From: Shimia litoralis
GTDB taxonomy: Bacteria > Pseudomonadota > Alphaproteobacteria > Rhodobacterales > Rhodobacteraceae
DNA length: 64,000 bases
Direction: 5' to 3'
Assembly: GCF_005518135.1 (NCBI RefSeq)
Contig: NZ_SULI01000003.1
Span: 124,001 to 188,000 of the forward strand
The notes under the pieces are model-generated. The model worked only from the letters and a program-made list of their open reading frames with translations. It was not told the origin of the DNA and did not search any database. Made by a program: the position numbers and the translations under genes. Shown here one piece after another: positions 4,546 through 63,928 of the stretch. Positions within the stretch are counted from its first letter, which is position 1; every line of letters starts with the position of its first letter.

Positions 4546-4615
4546 GGGATCGCCCCTTTGTCTGCGATTTTGACCTTATTGCCCTTACCTTGTGAAAGAC
4601 ACAAGCGTTACACCA

Positions 4616-56463: not shown

Positions 56464-57732
56464 CTAGCCGAACATGTCCGACGTGATCCCCGCATACCAT
56501 CCCACGGATTCTTCGAATGTGGCCTTGCGCAGATCCGCGTCTTCGCCGGTTTTGGAGATAAATCCATCCACCTTGGCAATTTTCTCGTCGGTGGCCTCGT
56601 AGGTAGCCCCGACTTTGACGCCATCATTGGTATCGATCAATGACCAGCAAGTGTTCGAGAACTTGGCCGGGAACACTTTGGACCCAGTCAAAGCCCCCCG
56701 GATCGCCATCGCGGCGACCTTGGCTTGGCTGTTGGCCGAGAACCCAGATTTGGGCATATCGCCTTGGCTACAGGCATCGCCAAGCACGTGGATGTTTTCA
56801 TCCAGGCGACTTTGCATTGTATGGCCGATAACAGGTGCCCAGTTGCCTTCAGTGACGCCTGCCATCTCGCAAATGCGACCTGCCTTCATCGCAGGAATGA
56901 CATTGCAAACATCAACCTTGGTGACTTCGCCATCAATGCTGACGGTCATGTCATCCGCGTTGACCTCGACATTATCGCCGCCAAAGTCTGACCCAACCCA
57001 ATCAATCATGCCTTCATAATGATTGGCCCAACCTTCTTGGAACAATGCCATCTTGGAAAATTTCGGCTTAGGGTCGGCCACAATAATTTTAGCGGTCGGA
57101 TTGGTTTCCTTGAGCACGTGCGCCACCATCGACACCCGTTCATACGGACCCGGGGGACAGCGATAGGGATTGGGCGGCGCCACCATCGCAAATGTTCCGC
57201 CCTGAGGCATCGCCTCGATCTGGGCCTTAAGCAACTCGGACTGTGATCCAGCCTTGTACGCATGTGGCATCTTGTTTTGCGCGCTCACATCCCACCCGGG
57301 CACTGCACCGTCCACAAAATCGATCCCCGGCGACAGAACCAAACGATCATAAGGCAGCTTTGCACCTCCGGCGAGGGTCACCATTTTCGCGTCGCGATCA
57401 ATCCCGACAGCCCAGTCATGCACCACGTTCACGCCGAATTTGGCGGCCAGTGTCCCATAAGAATGGGCAATACTGGACAGCTCCCTAAATCCACCAATGT
57501 ACAGATTTGAGAAAAAACAGGTGTAGTAGCTGCGGCTGGGTTCAACCAAAGTCACGTCAATCGCGCCTTTTGATCCTTTGGCAATATAGCGCGCGGCAGT
57601 TGCCCCACCTGCGCCACCACCGATGACCACCACACGGGGCTTGCCGTGACTTGCCCCCATTACCATCGGCGCAGACAATGTCGCCGCAGCTGCGGCCCCT
57701 GCCCCAATAAACGTCCTTCTATTCAATGTCAT
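56464..57732 (-). CDS. soxF: SoxF, flavocytochrome c sulfide dehydrogenase-type flavoprotein
   Basis: FAD protein of the FccB family, exported by the Tat route. The 422-residue precursor begins [22 protein letters not shown] (twin arginine). The FAD fingerprint is VVVIGGGAGGATAARYI. The redox cysteines expected for sulfide dehydrogenases are C72 in YYTCFFSN and C192 in NPYRCPPGPYER; a C-terminal FCSD domain ends the protein. SoxF of Paracoccus reactivates SoxYZ; with a diheme partner it can oxidise sulfide. It is the last gene of the cluster, 30 bases after soxE. Confidence 0.92.
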   Translation of the reverse strand: MTLNRRTFIGAGAAAAATLSAPMVMGASHGKPRVVVIGGGAGGATAARYIAKGSKGAIDVTLVEPSRSYYTCFFSNLYIGGFRELSSIAHSYGTLAAKFGVNVVHDWAVGIDRDAKMVTLAGGAKLPYDRLVLSPGIDFVDGAVPGWDVSAQNKMPHAYKAGSQSELLKAQIEAMPQGGTFAMVAPPNPYRCPPGPYERVSMVAHVLKETNPTAKIIVADPKPKFSKMALFQEGWANHYEGMIDWVGSDFGGDNVEVNADDMTVSIDGEVTKVDVCNVIPAMKAGRICEMAGVTEGNWAPVIGHTMQSRLDENIHVLGDACSQGDMPKSGFSANSQAKVAAMAIRGALTGSKVFPAKFSNTCWSLIDTNDGVKVGATYEATDEKIAKVDGFISKTGEDADLRKATFEESVGWYAGITSDMFG

Positions 57733-57762
57733 AGATCGTCCTCCCTTGATTTTATGTTCCGC

Positions 57763-58473
57763 TCACTCCAATTCCGCGAAATATGCCGCCAGTGCAGCAA
57801 TTTCTTCATCTGACAGTCGGCCAGCCATCATTTGCATGACGGGATGCGAGCGCTGCTTGACCTTGTAAGCATGCATTGCGATCACAAATTCCTCTGTAGG
57901 CCATTGGGTGATCGACGGAATTCCATCATAATCACCGTCAACTTGGTGACAGGTCGTGCACTCGCTCGACAAATACTCGCCGTACTCGGGATCCCCCACA
58001 ATTGCGAGGATCTCGGGGGATAACTCTACTTCGACTTTGCGTGCTGTTGGTGCCGCCTCGGGGATATCTTGGGGATTATCGGAAAACTGGCGCAAATAGG
58101 CCAGCAGATCATTCCGATCTTTTTCCTTTTTCATTCCCCGAAAGCTCATTTTTGTACCGGGCAAAACGTCTTTGGGATGCTCAAGAAAGCTCGAAAGCCC
58201 TTCGATATCCCAAATCATCCCGTCGGTACGCGCAGCGTTAAGGGATTTGGAGTATTTGTAATCTTGAAAATTTGCGACAGGTCGAAAGAAAATCCCGTTC
58301 AAATGCGGGCCCACCTTGTGACGTGCCCCCTTGCCGACCTGATGACAGGATTGGCAGCGTTTGAACATTTTGGCGCCGCGTTCCGGATCGCCAATTTCAA
58401 CAAGATTTTCCTCGGCTTGGACGGCGCCAACAAGCGCCATCCAAAAGATCGTTGCTACGTGGACCAGACGCAT
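57763..58473 (-). CDS. soxE: SoxE, diheme c-type cytochrome
   Basis: A 236-residue secreted cytochrome with a signal peptide (MRLVHVATIFWMALVGAVQA) and two heme sites, C40-QSCH and C172-TTCH. It is the usual partner of the SoxF flavoprotein. The N-terminal half (about 30-130) is a cytochrome c2-like domain very similar to the C-terminal domain of SoxD; the second half is shorter and resembles the small FccA-type heme domain. I use the ATG at 58473; the codon before it is TTG. It begins three bases after the soxD stop. Confidence 0.88.
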   Translation of the reverse strand: MRLVHVATIFWMALVGAVQAEENLVEIGDPERGAKMFKRCQSCHQVGKGARHKVGPHLNGIFFRPVANFQDYKYSKSLNAARTDGMIWDIEGLSSFLEHPKDVLPGTKMSFRGMKKEKDRNDLLAYLRQFSDNPQDIPEAAPTARKVEVELSPEILAIVGDPEYGEYLSSECTTCHQVDGDYDGIPSITQWPTEEFVIAMHAYKVKQRSHPVMQMMAGRLSDEEIAALAAYFAELE

Positions 58474-58476
58474 CAA

Positions 58477-59532
58477 TTAGTCCTGAAAAGATTTTAGATA
58501 TTCGGTCACCGCGGCGATGTCTTTTTCCTTTTTTAAACCGGAAAAGGACATCTTGGTTCCCTTGAGGTACTTTTTGGGCTTGGTCAGGAACGCAGCAAGT
58601 TCTTCTTCGCTCCAGACTTTGCCCTCAGCGCCCAAAGCCGCCATGGGTTTAGAATATTTAAAGCCGTCAGCCATCGCGACCGTTTTGCCCACAATCCCAT
58701 TCAGTGCAGGGCCAGTTTTGTTTTTGGCACCCTCACCAACCTGATGGCAGGCTTTGCATTTCTTGAAGACCTTTTCGCCCTTTTTGGCCAGCTCTTCGTC
58801 AATCACAACAGCAACGACCTCTGGTTCCGGCGCTGCTTCTTGCACTGGTGCTGCGGCCTCTTCGGCGGCAGCAGGTGCAGCAGCGGAGTCCTCACCGGAT
58901 TTTTCCGGAGTCACATCAAGCACCAAGGCACGCATGGTAATTTCCACACTGTCCTTACAGTCGGTCATGCAAGGTTCTGGGTTCCAGAAGTGCTTTTCGG
59001 ACACTTCACGGTCGTCCAGAATGAACCCGTCGACGTTGGGCAAAGCCACATCGGTAAAGTTTTCGTTCGACAACACGAATTCTTCGTCCACCAAGTCATT
59101 GGAATACAAAATATAGGCAACAATTGCATAGACCTCGTCGGGGCTTAGAGACTGCGCGTCGCCAAACGGCATCGAGCGGTTCACATAGTCCCAAGTTGTC
59201 GACAGATATGGCCAGTAGGACCCAACGGTTTTCAAGGGGTCATCATGATCCAATGTGCCTGCACCACCAGCCAGTTTTGGCCAATTGTCCACACCTTCGG
59301 CAAAATCGCCGTGGCAGATCGCGCAGTTGTCCGCAAAGACTTCTTCGCCAGTCAGAACATCACCTGAACCCGCAGGCAAACCCGTACCATCAGGGGCCAC
59401 ATCTTTGTCCCAAGCCGCAATTTCATCTGCCAAAGCAGGACGGCCCAAACCGTATTTTTCGGCCATCGCTGGCGCGGCGATCAATGTCGAGGCCAGAGCG
59501 GTCCCGGCAACTAAATTAAGAAACTTCGACAT
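58477..59532 (-). CDS. soxD: SoxD, diheme cytochrome subunit of sulfane dehydrogenase
   Basis: Electron-accepting subunit of Sox(CD)2, which oxidises the sulfane sulfur bound to SoxY. The 351-residue precursor has a signal peptide (MSKFLNLVAGTALASTLIAAPAMA), the first heme at C70-AICH, an intermediate domain with two further cysteines (EPCMTDCKD), an Ala/Glu/Pro-rich linker at about 215-245, and a cytochrome c2-like domain with C259-KACH. It overlaps the soxC 3' end by 17 bases. Presence of SoxCD predicts complete thiosulfate oxidation to sulfate without sulfur globules. Confidence 0.94.
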   Translation of the reverse strand: MSKFLNLVAGTALASTLIAAPAMAEKYGLGRPALADEIAAWDKDVAPDGTGLPAGSGDVLTGEEVFADNCAICHGDFAEGVDNWPKLAGGAGTLDHDDPLKTVGSYWPYLSTTWDYVNRSMPFGDAQSLSPDEVYAIVAYILYSNDLVDEEFVLSNENFTDVALPNVDGFILDDREVSEKHFWNPEPCMTDCKDSVEITMRALVLDVTPEKSGEDSAAAPAAAEEAAAPVQEAAPEPEVVAVVIDEELAKKGEKVFKKCKACHQVGEGAKNKTGPALNGIVGKTVAMADGFKYSKPMAALGAEGKVWSEEELAAFLTKPKKYLKGTKMSFSGLKKEKDIAAVTEYLKSFQD

Positions 59533-60781
59533 TCTCGGCCTCCCCGTTGGATTTGACCCACCAAGTCTGGATACAGTTGTTGTGATAAATTGAGTTCAGC
59601 CCACGTACGTCACGCAGTTGTGTCTTGGTCGGCTGCACGTATCCGGTGCTGTCTTTGGCACGCGACTGCAGGAACATTTCCTCGCCTTGCCAATTGTAGT
59701 CCAGATAGAAGCGGCTCAGCGCCTTGTCCTGACCCGGAGCCCCCAAACGCGCCTCTTGCCACGTTTTCCCGCCATCCACGGACACATCGACGCCCGTGAT
59801 CGCACCGCGGCCTGACCATGCCAAACCAGTGATCACAAGCGGACCATGGCCATGCTTGATAGGGGCCTGCGGGCTTGGGCTTGTGACAACAGATTTTGCA
59901 TCCATTTCCCACGTCCATTTGCGCGCAATCCCGTTTGCAAGCGTGTCAGTGTATTTCGACGTTTCCTCACGGCTTTCAATGGCTTGCGTGGTGACTTCGA
60001 TTCGGCGAAGCCACTTAATCCACATATTGCCTTCCCATCCGGGAACAACCAGACGCACGGGGTAACCATGCTCTTTGCGCAGAGCTTCTCCGTTGGCCTT
60101 AAAGGCCACCAGAACGTCATCCATTGCTTTTTCCAAGGGAATGGAACGGCCATTTGATGACGCATCTGCGCCCTCAACATAGACCCATTTTCCTTCGGTC
60201 TGCACGCCAGCTTCTTCCAGCAACGTCCGCAGTGGAATTCCGGAGTATTCCATATTGTGGATCATGCCGTGGGTGAATTGCGCGCCATTCAACTGTGCGC
60301 CCGCCCACTCCATGCCGGTGTTCGCAGCACATTCACAGAAATATACGCGGTTTTCGCGCGGGAACCGTTCCAGATCTTCATATGTAAAGACCAGAGGTTG
60401 ATCGACCAAGCCGTTGATCATCAACCGATAGTCTTCTTTCTTGAGGTCGATCGCCCCAGAGTGATGCCGCTCAAACGCGCATCCCTGCGGGGTGATCGTG
60501 CCGTCAAGCGCGTGAATCGGTGTAAAGTTGATCGACGAAATCGTATCTGCCGTCAGCCACTCCACATTGCGACGCACAACATCGGACTCATAACTGATTG
60601 GCAGACCATATGGCGTCGCGTCGACGCCCTCTCCGGTTGCCGATGCCCATTCTTGCACCTCGGTGATCAACGGGTCCCCAGCGGCGCTTGCGGCGCCGGC
60701 ACTGGCGACAGTACCTCCGGCCGCGACTGCGCCCTTTAGGAACGCGCGGCGCGAGGGTGTGCCTTTGAAGCTCATTGTCAT
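59516..60781 (-). CDS. soxC: SoxC, molybdenum subunit of sulfane dehydrogenase
   Basis: Sulfite-oxidase-family molybdoenzyme, exported by Tat (PSRRAFLKGAVAAGGTV). The 421-residue protein has the molybdopterin-binding region CAFERHHSGAIDL and the segment RVYFCECAANTGMEW, where C151 is the likely molybdenum ligand. A C-terminal dimerisation domain follows (ITGLAWSGRGAITGVDVSVDGGKTW). The ATG at 60781 has GAGGAGG nine bases upstream. It overlaps soxD by 17 bases. Confidence 0.95.
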   Translation of the reverse strand: MTMSFKGTPSRRAFLKGAVAAGGTVASAGAASAAGDPLITEVQEWASATGEGVDATPYGLPISYESDVVRRNVEWLTADTISSINFTPIHALDGTITPQGCAFERHHSGAIDLKKEDYRLMINGLVDQPLVFTYEDLERFPRENRVYFCECAANTGMEWAGAQLNGAQFTHGMIHNMEYSGIPLRTLLEEAGVQTEGKWVYVEGADASSNGRSIPLEKAMDDVLVAFKANGEALRKEHGYPVRLVVPGWEGNMWIKWLRRIEVTTQAIESREETSKYTDTLANGIARKWTWEMDAKSVVTSPSPQAPIKHGHGPLVITGLAWSGRGAITGVDVSVDGGKTWQEARLGAPGQDKALSRFYLDYNWQGEEMFLQSRAKDSTGYVQPTKTQLRDVRGLNSIYHNNCIQTWWVKSNGEAENVEVS

Positions 60782-60864: not shown

Positions 60865-62562
60865 TTAGATGCCGTCGACCTTGACGTTCTCGTGGGATTC
60901 GACTGTCACAGTACCCTTTTTGCGAATGTGATCTTCGACCACATCCCAAATCTGCGGGCCTTCTGTGCCTTCGTTCACCGAGGCCCAACCAGCCACAACA
61001 TAGTTTTTGGAAGGGTCAATCGCTTCGCCCGTTTTAAGCAGGGTCATGTCGCTGATGCGGCTACCCTGTGGTTTGCTCACGTCGATCCGATAGGCCATGC
61101 CGCCGATGCGCACCATGTCGCCACCTTGTTGGTAATAGGGGTCAACATTGAACAGGTTATCCGCAACATCTTCGAGAATAACGTGAATGAACTCGCCTGT
61201 CATTTCAGAGCGATAGGCCTCGCCATAGCTCATCGAAGTGACATTCCAAATGTCTTCACGCGTGATGTCTTGACCAGGCAAGATCGACGGCCCCCAACGC
61301 ACACCAGGTGACATCGAAATATCGGCTTCACGTTCTTCAATCAGCGCCTGACAGATCAAGTCATCCCAAGTGCCGTTAAAGTTCCCGCGACGATACAACA
61401 AGCTGTCGGTTTGGCCGATTACCTCAGTCAATTGGTCCAGATATGGCGCGCGTTGTTCGTCAATCAGCTTGGTAATCACAGGGTCCGGCGCGATCACATC
61501 CGAGAAAATCGGGATCAACTTGTGACGGAAGCCCATCATCTTGCCGTCACGCACATCCAGATCAACACGGCTCACAAATTTGCCGTTCGATCCAGAGGCC
61601 ACAATGATGGTTTCCCCGACCAAGACTGGCTCAGGCAATGCATCATGCGTGTGACCGGACAAGATGACGTCAATACCAGGAACGCGTCCCGCCATTTTCT
61701 TATCGACGTCAAAGCCATTGTGCGACAGAACCACCACAAGATCAGCGCCCATTTCACGGACTTCGGTTACCATTTCCGCCATGTTTTCATCGCGGATACC
61801 AAAGGAGTACTCGGGGAACATCCAGCGCGGGTTGGCAATCGGCATATATGGGAAAGCCTGACCGATCACAGCGATCTTGGCACCACCACGTTCAAAGAAT
61901 TTGTATGGTTTGAACAACTCCGCAGGTTCGTCCCACTCTGCGTCAAAGATGTTTTGGCCCAATGCGGCAAACGGCAGACCTTCGACGATCTCGTTCACGC
62001 GATCAGATCCCAAAGTAAATTCCCAGTGGAACGTCATGGCGTCTGGTTTCAACGCGTTCATCACGTTGACCATGTCTTGGCCTTCAGTGTGATGACAGGT
62101 GTATGACCCGTGCCACGTGTCCCCGCCATCCAAAAGGATCGCATCCGGACGATCCGCGCGAATGGCATTGATCACTGTCGATACGCGATCCAGACCACCA
62201 ACGCGGCCATAAGTTTTTGCGAGCGAGGTAAAGTCATTGTACGTCAGCGCATAGTGGCTGGGCGATCCGTCTTCGATGCCATACATCTTGCGGAAATCAG
62301 CCCCCGTCACGTGTGGGACATTACCATAGGCCTCGCCCACACCCAGATTGATCTCTGGTTCGCGGAAATAGATCGGCTTGAGCTGTGCGTGAATATCGGT
62401 GACGTGGATCAAAGATACATTCCCAAATGTATCAAATTGAAGCAAGTCATCCTGTGTCAACGACTGTTGAGCCGCCAAGCGGGCCCAATTGCCGAAACCT
62501 GAACCACCAACCATTGCTGAAGCGGCCATTGAGACCTGAAGGAAATCGCGACGAGAGATCAT
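60865..62562 (-). CDS. soxB: SoxB, SoxYZ-bound sulfonate hydrolase
   Basis: Di-manganese hydrolase that releases sulfate from the thiosulfonate carried on SoxY. The 565-residue precursor has a Tat signal (MISRRDFLQVSMAASAMVG). It has 5'-nucleotidase-like motifs: LIHVTDIHAQLKP (D56, H58), LLDGGDTWHGS, MTFHWEFTLGSDR in place of the usual GNHE, and VVLSHNGFDVDKKMAGRVPGIDVILSGHTHDALPEP. The sequence GVRWGPSILPG and the C-terminal nucleotidase domain fit. It is preceded by a terminator plus a promoter/operator structure, so it seems to start a soxBCDEF unit. Confidence 0.95.
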   Translation of the reverse strand: MISRRDFLQVSMAASAMVGGSGFGNWARLAAQQSLTQDDLLQFDTFGNVSLIHVTDIHAQLKPIYFREPEINLGVGEAYGNVPHVTGADFRKMYGIEDGSPSHYALTYNDFTSLAKTYGRVGGLDRVSTVINAIRADRPDAILLDGGDTWHGSYTCHHTEGQDMVNVMNALKPDAMTFHWEFTLGSDRVNEIVEGLPFAALGQNIFDAEWDEPAELFKPYKFFERGGAKIAVIGQAFPYMPIANPRWMFPEYSFGIRDENMAEMVTEVREMGADLVVVLSHNGFDVDKKMAGRVPGIDVILSGHTHDALPEPVLVGETIIVASGSNGKFVSRVDLDVRDGKMMGFRHKLIPIFSDVIAPDPVITKLIDEQRAPYLDQLTEVIGQTDSLLYRRGNFNGTWDDLICQALIEEREADISMSPGVRWGPSILPGQDITREDIWNVTSMSYGEAYRSEMTGEFIHVILEDVADNLFNVDPYYQQGGDMVRIGGMAYRIDVSKPQGSRISDMTLLKTGEAIDPSKNYVVAGWASVNEGTEGPQIWDVVEDHIRKKGTVTVESHENVKVDGI

Positions 62563-62601
62563 AGACGAAGCGCCTTTTCTAAATGTGTATCACGCATACA
62601 G

Positions 62602-62630
62602 CTTATATTCGCATGTATGAATTTGTGTAA
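62602..62630 (-). promoter_or_regulatory. soxB promoter with an ATTC-N8-GAAT operator
   Basis: Read on the minus strand: -35 TTACAC (62630-62625), 17-base spacer, -10 TATAAG (62607-62602), giving a start near 62595. Within the spacer is ATTC-N8-GAAT (62607-62622), the dyad form that I recall for the persulfide-responsive ArsR-family repressors SqrR and BigR. A repressor there would block polymerase directly. The sequence match is exact; the protein is not in the window. Confidence 0.6.
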
Positions 62631-62636
62631 TGTGAC

Positions 62637-62671
62637 AAAAGCCCGCTCTGGATCATCCAGAACGGGCTTTT
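62637..62671 (-). terminator. Strong hairpin between soxA and soxB
   Basis: AAAAGCCCG and TCTGGAT (left side, 62637-62645 and 62647-62653) pair with ATCCAGA and CGGGCTTTT (62655-62661 and 62663-62671), about 16 bp with one mismatch. On the minus strand the stem ends in four T. It begins five bases after the soxA stop and should terminate most transcripts from soxYZA. It could work in both directions. Confidence 0.75.
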
Positions 62672-62676
62672 GAGCG

Positions 62677-63525
62677 TTAGTTACGAACCGAAGGTCCTTC
62701 GACGGACAGACCGTTGCCGCGCGACGCAACATAAAGTTCCAGCGCAACGAACTCGGCGGAACCGGGTTTGTATGTCTCGGCGCGTGTATCACGCACACAC
62801 CCTTTGAAACGTGCATGCACTGTGTTCAGCTTTGCATTTTTCAAACGGTAGGCCGGAAAGCCGTTGATGTGACCTTGTGAAAGGTGATCAGCGCGGATCA
62901 GGTTGCCATAGTTGTCTTCGTGGCAATTGGCGCAGGACAGATCAAGTTGGCCTGTGCGTGTGTAATACAGCTCTTTGCCTTCTTCCCACATGACCTCTGC
63001 CGGGCCATCAATGGCAACATCGACTGGCATGCCGCGTGATTGAAGCGAAATCAGCGCTTCCATCGCGGCCATTTTGCCACCGGTATATTTCCATTTTTCG
63101 GCACCCATGCCGTTTTCGCGGCAATCATTGACCTGCATGGCGATTGTGCGAACTTCTTCAGCGCTGTCATTCCACTTGGGATAGACGGCGCGCACGCCCT
63201 TCATGCTGGTTTCCACGTCATCGTGGCAGCTTGCACAGGATTTGCCTTTTTCGCCGTCAACAGTGCCCCATGTGTCCATTGCCTGGTCCACAAAGATCAT
63301 GCCGGGGTTGTCAAAGTCATCCAGTTGCAGCGCTTGTGTTTCGTCAGACCGAAACCGCCAGCCAGACAGGACTTCGTCCAAACTGTCTGCAAGATGTGCC
63401 GGTGCTGCCGTACGGGTTACCAAATTCAGGTCCCCATTAACGACCAGTTCCGCCTCTTCGTCAGCCATTGCTGCCGGGGCAGACAGAAGCAGTGCAGCTA
63501 TTGCTGTCATTGCCTTGAATTTCAT
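62677..63525 (-). CDS. soxA: SoxA, c-type cytochrome of SoxAX
   Basis: SoxAX links thiosulfate oxidatively to the SoxY cysteine. The 282-residue precursor has a signal peptide (MKFKAMTAIAALLLSAPAAMA) and two heme sites, C97-ASCH and C198-ANCH, so it is the diheme type. C243 in FKGCVRDTRAE is the likely active-site cysteine (persulfide ligand of the second heme). The ATG at 63525 is preceded by a GGGAGGAA ribosome site; the longer upstream frame overlaps the soxZ region and lacks similarity. It lies 73 bases after soxZ. soxX would be outside the window. Confidence 0.95.
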   Translation of the reverse strand: MKFKAMTAIAALLLSAPAAMADEEAELVVNGDLNLVTRTAAPAHLADSLDEVLSGWRFRSDETQALQLDDFDNPGMIFVDQAMDTWGTVDGEKGKSCASCHDDVETSMKGVRAVYPKWNDSAEEVRTIAMQVNDCRENGMGAEKWKYTGGKMAAMEALISLQSRGMPVDVAIDGPAEVMWEEGKELYYTRTGQLDLSCANCHEDNYGNLIRADHLSQGHINGFPAYRLKNAKLNTVHARFKGCVRDTRAETYKPGSAEFVALELYVASRGNGLSVEGPSVRN

Positions 63526-63598: not shown

Positions 63599-63928
63599 TT
63601 AACCGATAGCGACTTTCTTGCTCTCTTCGTAGACCGACCCATCATCGTCATACCAAGTGAATTTGAATTCACCGGCTTCGGGCACGGTGGCCTCGAACTG
63701 AACGTAAGGGTTGGTAGAAATCGCCGATTCAAATGTCGCGTCCATGACGGACTGACCGTTAAAGTCGCATGTGAAGCGGTTGATGATCGAACGCGGGATA
63801 AGGTTGCCCTCTTTGTCCTTACGCTGACCAGATTCCATTTTGTGCGAAATCAGTGTCTTGATGACGATAACGTCACCTGCTGCTGCTTTCTTGGGGACTT
63901 TGACGCGGGGTTTTACACCAGATGCCAT
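63599..63928 (-). CDS. soxZ: SoxZ, sulfur compound chelating protein
   Basis: Partner of SoxY; the SoxYZ heterodimer carries the sulfur intermediates in the periplasm. The 109-residue product has VKVPKKAAAGDVIVIKTLISHKMESGQRKD, RSIINRFTCDFNGQSV and EFKFTWYDDDGSVYEESKKV, typical of the Ig-like SoxZ fold. It has no signal peptide, as expected, since it is co-exported with SoxY by Tat. It lies 19 bases after soxY. Confidence 0.95.
   Translation of the reverse strand: MASGVKPRVKVPKKAAAGDVIVIKTLISHKMESGQRKDKEGNLIPRSIINRFTCDFNGQSVMDATFESAISTNPYVQFEATVPEAGEFKFTWYDDDGSVYEESKKVAIG

Follow-up and report, generated by a model that had tools for sequence, protein, structure and literature searches.

The gap between soxA and soxB of Shimia litoralis contains an exact ATTC-N8-GAAT dyad that is probably an operator for SoxR, an ArsR-type repressor whose gene belongs to the same sox cluster, and that would open a separately controlled soxB unit. 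Conservation of this dyad among relatives is strong. A preliminary description of this DNA had reported the dyad, which is indeed present, and had proposed that soxB belongs to a separately controlled unit under an operator of the SqrR/SoxR type. This proposal gains from the conservation of the dyad in 56 of 79 gaps, from the occurrence of the same dyad at soxX, soxC and MBL-fold genes, and from the SqrR-like character of SoxR, whereas the promoter and the terminator tail are both weak.

The analyzed stretch, hereafter the window, comprises 64,000 nucleotides from a genome of 3.57 Mb (contig C23, bases 124001–188000) and carries its sox genes on the minus strand (Table 1). SoxB, SoxA, SoxZ, SoxY and SoxX passed the curated cut-offs of their families, SoxV, SoxR and SoxT gave family matches below the specific cut-offs, and soxW and soxS were named from their position only. 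The cluster continues outside the window with soxX, a soxW-like gene and soxV, and with soxS, soxR and a SoxT/TsuA-like gene in the opposite orientation. The upstream unit had been given as soxYZA; its first gene is soxX, located beyond the window, and the unit is therefore soxXYZA. From soxA to soxB, the gap is composed of a hairpin, 13 bases, the dyad and 44 bases that lead to the soxB start.

Table 1. Features of the soxA-soxB region and further exact dyads of the home genome. Positions are those of the window unless a locus is named.
Feature	Position	Strand	Basis
soxB, thiosulfohydrolase	60865..62562	-	NCBIfam TIGR04486, 840 bits vs cut-off 550
soxA, c-type cytochrome	62677..63525	-	NCBIfam TIGR04484, 248 bits vs cut-off 110; start set at MKFKAMTA
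soxZ	63599..63928	-	NCBIfam TIGR04490
Four ORFs 3' of soxB, soxCDEF by order and preliminary description	56464..60781	-	open frames
soxA-soxB gap, 114 bp	62563..62676	-	soxA stop 62677-62679; soxB start 62562
Terminator-like hairpin, 17 pairs, then short T run	62636..62672	-	folding z -7.65; below the scanner's terminator threshold
Dyad ATTCATACATGCGAAT (minus strand), proposed SoxR operator	62607..62622	.	exact match; conserved form in 56/79 gaps
Promoter-like hexamers of the preliminary description: TTACAC 62625-62630, TATAAG 62602-62607	62602..62631	-	weak
Exact dyads before SulP permease / DUF2892-like-BLH-SQR unit	L087:2477-2492 and 4582-4597		contig C12 of the home genome

Shuffling of the home soxA-soxB gap produced the exact dyad in 0.36% of 5000 trials. 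Genome-wide, 46 exact copies were counted versus about 34 expected from the base composition of the window, which is near chance; this census was thus rejected as proof of function. Because the dyad alone is near chance in the home genome, the case for its function rests on conservation. We inspected the context of 45 of the 46 exact home hits (all but C12:234652), with the neighbors named in part (10 proteins).

Relatives were taken from a SoxB search, of which the best 80 of 592 stretches were kept and added to the home locus to give 81 loci, and therefore the frequencies reported here hold for close SoxB relatives. The soxA-soxB gap was readable in 79 of these loci, L065 and L071 being left out as they offer no usable soxA. 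ATTC-N8-G[A/C]AT, whose GAAT form came from the preliminary description and whose GCAT form was added after the gaps were inspected, is present in 56 of the 79 gaps (best 80 of 592 plus home), compared to a mean of 0.35 and a maximum of 3 in shuffled gaps. The exact ATTC-N8-GAAT alone is present in 23, compared to a shuffled mean of 0.155 and a maximum of 2. In a motif-free count that covers every palindromic 4-N-4 word with spacers of 0 to 14, ATTC-N8-GAAT ranks first with 23 of the 79 gaps, while any word in the shuffles reaches at most 4. Furthermore, the dyad starts 47–57 bp past the soxA stop and 7–18 bp past the hairpin in 56 of 56 cases, and two positions outside the selection are conserved, namely A at +4 (55/56) and T at +17 (49/56); bases past +20 of the aligned sites hold little information. 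The alignment of soxA-soxB gaps across Roseobacter relatives, which the preliminary description had put forward as a check, hence found the dyad conserved. It is extremely improbable that the dyad arose by chance in an AT-rich gap. The near-chance number of copies in the home genome agrees with such an origin, but the fixed place of the dyad and the conserved A and T argue against it, and the shuffled gaps and the motif-free palindrome count contradict it at the family level.

The dyad is common in Roseobacter-type rows and absent from 23 of the 79 gaps (best 80 of 592 plus home), including those of Paracoccus, Gemmobacter, Pseudorhodobacter and Albidovulum, and also of Ruegeria arenilitoris, Lentibacter and others. 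On a SoxB tree built with a quick method and evaluated by SH-aLRT only, the presence of the dyad requires at least 10 changes over the 79 rows, whereas every one of 500 shuffles required more.

Next in the motif-free count came ATGC-GCAT and ACAT-N4-ATGT, found in 13 and 11 of the 79 gaps, respectively (best 80 of 592 plus home). Another regulator might read an overlapping palindrome of this ACAT/ATGT type that would happen to contain the dyad in many relatives, and a covariation test on these gaps favored neither center over the other. We nevertheless regard a regulator of this kind as highly improbable, since ATTC-N8-GAAT is the commoner word and also stands at further genes of the sox pathway.

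Stretches between soxW and soxX were cut for 74 of the 81 loci, with the 200 bases before soxX used when soxW was missing. The exact dyad is present in 57 of the 74 (best 80 of 592 plus home), home included, frequently in the form AAATTCA-N6-TGAATTT. This gap is presumably the place of a published SoxR operator, and the putative soxA-soxB operator is an addition to the soxW-soxX site, not a substitute for it. The right half is more degenerate at soxA-soxB (GCAT in 33 and GAAT in 23 of the 56 dyad gaps, best 80 of 592 plus home), which suggests that the soxA-soxB site is weaker than the soxW-soxX site and hence that induction would be staged. In the soxS-soxV gap, the exact dyad was found in 1 of the 81 loci (best 80 of 592 plus home) and not at home, and forms with one mismatch, such as ATTTGAATATGTGAAT, are frequent. 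Loci L055, L068, L075, L076, L078 and L079 carry the dyad in neither the soxA-soxB nor the soxW-soxX gap, and the SoxR sequences of these loci belong to the more distant rows; in SoxR of L079, the second cysteine is absent at the aligned position.

Outside the soxA-soxB, soxW-soxX and soxS-soxV gaps, the 81 loci (1.62 Mb, best 80 of 592 plus home) contain 43 further exact dyads, 25 of which precede an MBL-fold gene and 8 soxC, as judged by the next open frame, with 10 lacking such a place. The MBL-fold sites lie on the minus strand near the end of 25 loci among L008–L080, with the dyad 0–22 bases before a gene of 296–310 amino acids in the opposite orientation that may correspond to soxH. A family scan of four MBL-fold and two soxC genes confirmed soxC, and the MBL-fold genes matched lactonase models below the cut-off.

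Within the main cluster, a dyad lies between soxB and soxC in seven loci (L010, L018, L021, L023, L029, L031 and L069), where it is of the extended AAATTC-N8-GAATTT type and sits approximately 1.73–1.78 kb past the soxB start. It occurs in 5 of the 23 loci without the soxA-soxB dyad versus 2 of the 56 with it (p 0.02, in a test that ignores kinship). As five of these seven loci are without the soxA-soxB dyad, the place of the second operator within the operon may have shifted.

The preliminary description had also proposed a genome-wide search for the dyad at other sulfur genes; the near-chance total gave it no help, and yet two more exact copies in the home genome precede a DUF2892-like/BLH-SQR unit and a gene for a SulP permease. 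The gene of the former unit that we presume to bear the label DUF2892 had no family match on a profile scan. A BLH-SQR gene was found in 8 of 41 family genomes (E 1e-100 or better), and 3 of the 8 genomes, home among them, have exact dyads in front of BLH-SQR or SulP. The SulP dyad stands behind a hairpin that trails the BLH-SQR fusion gene, and both dyads of this locus are followed by ATATnTG, like the soxB site. Elsewhere in the home genome, a related dyad, ATTCCATTGTTGGAAT, adjoins a DsrE-like gene (L101:2486-2501), and a long AT-rich palindrome, perhaps a terminator, surrounds a dyad between two genes (L099:2472).

The best solved-structure match of the local SoxR is the ArsR protein 13ct/6o8l (E 6.9e-37), which we take to be SqrR of R. 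capsulatus. The two cysteines are present in the local SoxR, and its recognition helix is SqrR-like; it shares RQAAVSQQL and RLRLEGL with 13ct/6o8l, and each of its cysteines is kept in 74 of 75 SoxR rows. A cognate two-cysteine ArsR repressor, the partner of a SoxR/SqrR operator, is therefore encoded near the sox genes. The home genome also encodes a second protein of the SoxR class (C1:332366, 60% identical to SoxR), which has the two cysteines as well as a good part of the recognition helix and could read the soxA-soxB dyad in place of SoxR. We counted SoxR-class proteins in 40 genomes chosen from the 80 loci, of which 35 carry the soxA-soxB dyad and 5 lack it. A single such protein is present in 18 of the 40, with the caveat that draft genomes may miss genes, and 17 of these 18 carry the dyad, the exception being L055. 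This makes the paralogue a very unlikely reader of the site, and SoxR the most likely one.

The hairpin that follows soxA has a folding energy of -29.5 kcal/mol. A 16-bp hairpin with a T-tail had been claimed here; the hairpin holds, with 17 pairs, and the tail TTTTGTCACATT is weak, its most T-rich stretch of 7 bases having 4 T. The home gap thus has the stable G+C-rich hairpin of an intrinsic terminator directly after the gene and lacks the T-rich tail, and a scanner that needs 5 T in 8 bases called no intrinsic terminator in it. Hairpins of at least 6 pairs are present in all 79 gaps (best 80 of 592 plus home), a count made without a shuffled control. At least 5 T in 7 bases follow the hairpin in 41 of the 56 dyad loci versus 8 of the 23 others (p 0.002, ignoring kinship; best 80 of 592 plus home), as though termination were coupled to the operator; the home locus is among the dyad loci with fewer than 5 T.

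The promoter of the preliminary description, TTACAC-17-TATAAG, exists in its letters and is weak as a match to the consensus (2/6 for TTACAC compared to TTGACA, and 5/6 for TATAAG), and a scanner reported no sigma-70 promoter in the soxA-soxB gap. An alternative -35 element with 4/6 matches lies one base upstream (ATTACA-18-TATAAG). Across relatives, a -35 element with at least 4 matches accompanies 12 of the 56 sites, compared to a shuffled mean of 5.9 and a shuffled maximum of 12. Averaging a -10-like score at every offset across the sites yielded weak candidates only, at -3 and +15, of which +15, the offset that fits the promoter of the preliminary description, is the best but low (6.2/12).

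The soxB ribosome site starts before +26, about where the promoter described above would set the transcript start, in 23 of the 50 sites with a clear ribosome site, which is too far upstream for that promoter. In many relatives, the transcript start may therefore coincide with the dyad or precede it. In L035, L037 and L042, the dyad even encloses the ribosome site (AGGA) and is immediately followed by the start codon, and the dyad region is therefore probably transcribed in those relatives. The home ribosome site, at +44, is compatible with either start position.

These observations, together with the absence of a clear promoter from the gap and the short T run at home, agree with a scheme in which the gap has no promoter, soxB depends on transcription from soxXYZA that passes a leaky hairpin, and SoxR bound to the dyad would act as a roadblock. 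The enrichment of T-rich stretches behind the hairpin at dyad loci speaks against this scheme, which we consider unlikely. It is also conceivable, if doubtful, that SoxR acts at soxA-soxB partly within a transcribed leader, given that the operator of one Roseobacter branch contains the soxB ribosome site, and that the weaker operator would tune SoxB and the downstream proteins against SoxXA and SoxYZ according to sulfane sulfur. If so, the repressor would bind the very DNA word that makes up the start region for translation.

For the preferred reading, a SoxR operator at the head of a separately controlled soxB unit, we infer SoxR binding, repression, release by sulfane sulfur, the transcription start and the efficiency of termination at the hairpin from sequence. 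When no oxidizable sulfur is available, a SoxR dimer bound to ATTC-N8-GAAT where the soxB unit begins would block transcription there. Sulfane sulfur would then bridge the two cysteines of SoxR, leading to its release and to expression of soxB and the downstream genes. The soxA hairpin would limit read-through from soxXYZA, a unit presumably controlled by a separate operator between soxW and soxX.

Roseobacters are important thiosulfate oxidizers of the sea. If repression acts separately on two units of their sox genes, the view of soxXYZABCD as one operon would be wrong for the Roseobacter clade, and the order of induction and the enzyme ratios would be open to promoter-fusion tests. Furthermore, the motif yields likely SoxR targets: soxX, soxB, soxC in some members, and the MBL-fold gene.

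We found no description of a soxA-soxB operator in the literature searched, mostly without subscription papers, nor in the accessible parts of PMC9774250, PMC10451225, PMC12423496, PMC5748708, PMC3797975 and PMC11582611. The proposed operator is thus a known kind of element, of the SoxR type, at a place not described in that literature. SoxR and its paralogue match the BigR model (NF040642), yet both remain below its 155-bit cut-off (92.8 and 106.4 bits, respectively). Starkeya novella has a split sox cluster with at least four transcriptional units according to the available portion of PMC3797975, which resembles the split proposed here between soxA and soxB; its gene order differs, however (soxAX, soxYZBCD), and that portion mentions no soxA-soxB operator. 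SoxR-regulated promoters between soxS and soxV are cited for other species in the part of PMC5748708 available, in contrast to the home soxS-soxV gap with no exact dyad. SoxR of H. denitrificans is a repressor that responds to sulfane sulfur (PMC10451225 and PMC12423496, as far as accessible), and it was tested on gaps other than soxA-soxB, binding four of the five probes of its cluster, including soxA-soxY (PMC10451225, accessible part). The ATTC-N8-GAAT dyad is the deduced site of Rhodobacter capsulatus SqrR in the accessible part of PMC9774250 and is identical to the soxA-soxB site. Unlike the SqrR operator, the soxA-soxB site precedes soxB and is paired with a SoxR from a sox cluster. With the SoxR operators of the Paracoccus, Pseudaminobacter and Hyphomicrobium sox clusters, it shares a repressor of the same family beside the sox genes, and the dyad here also occupies the soxW-soxX gap, presumably the place of a published SoxR operator.
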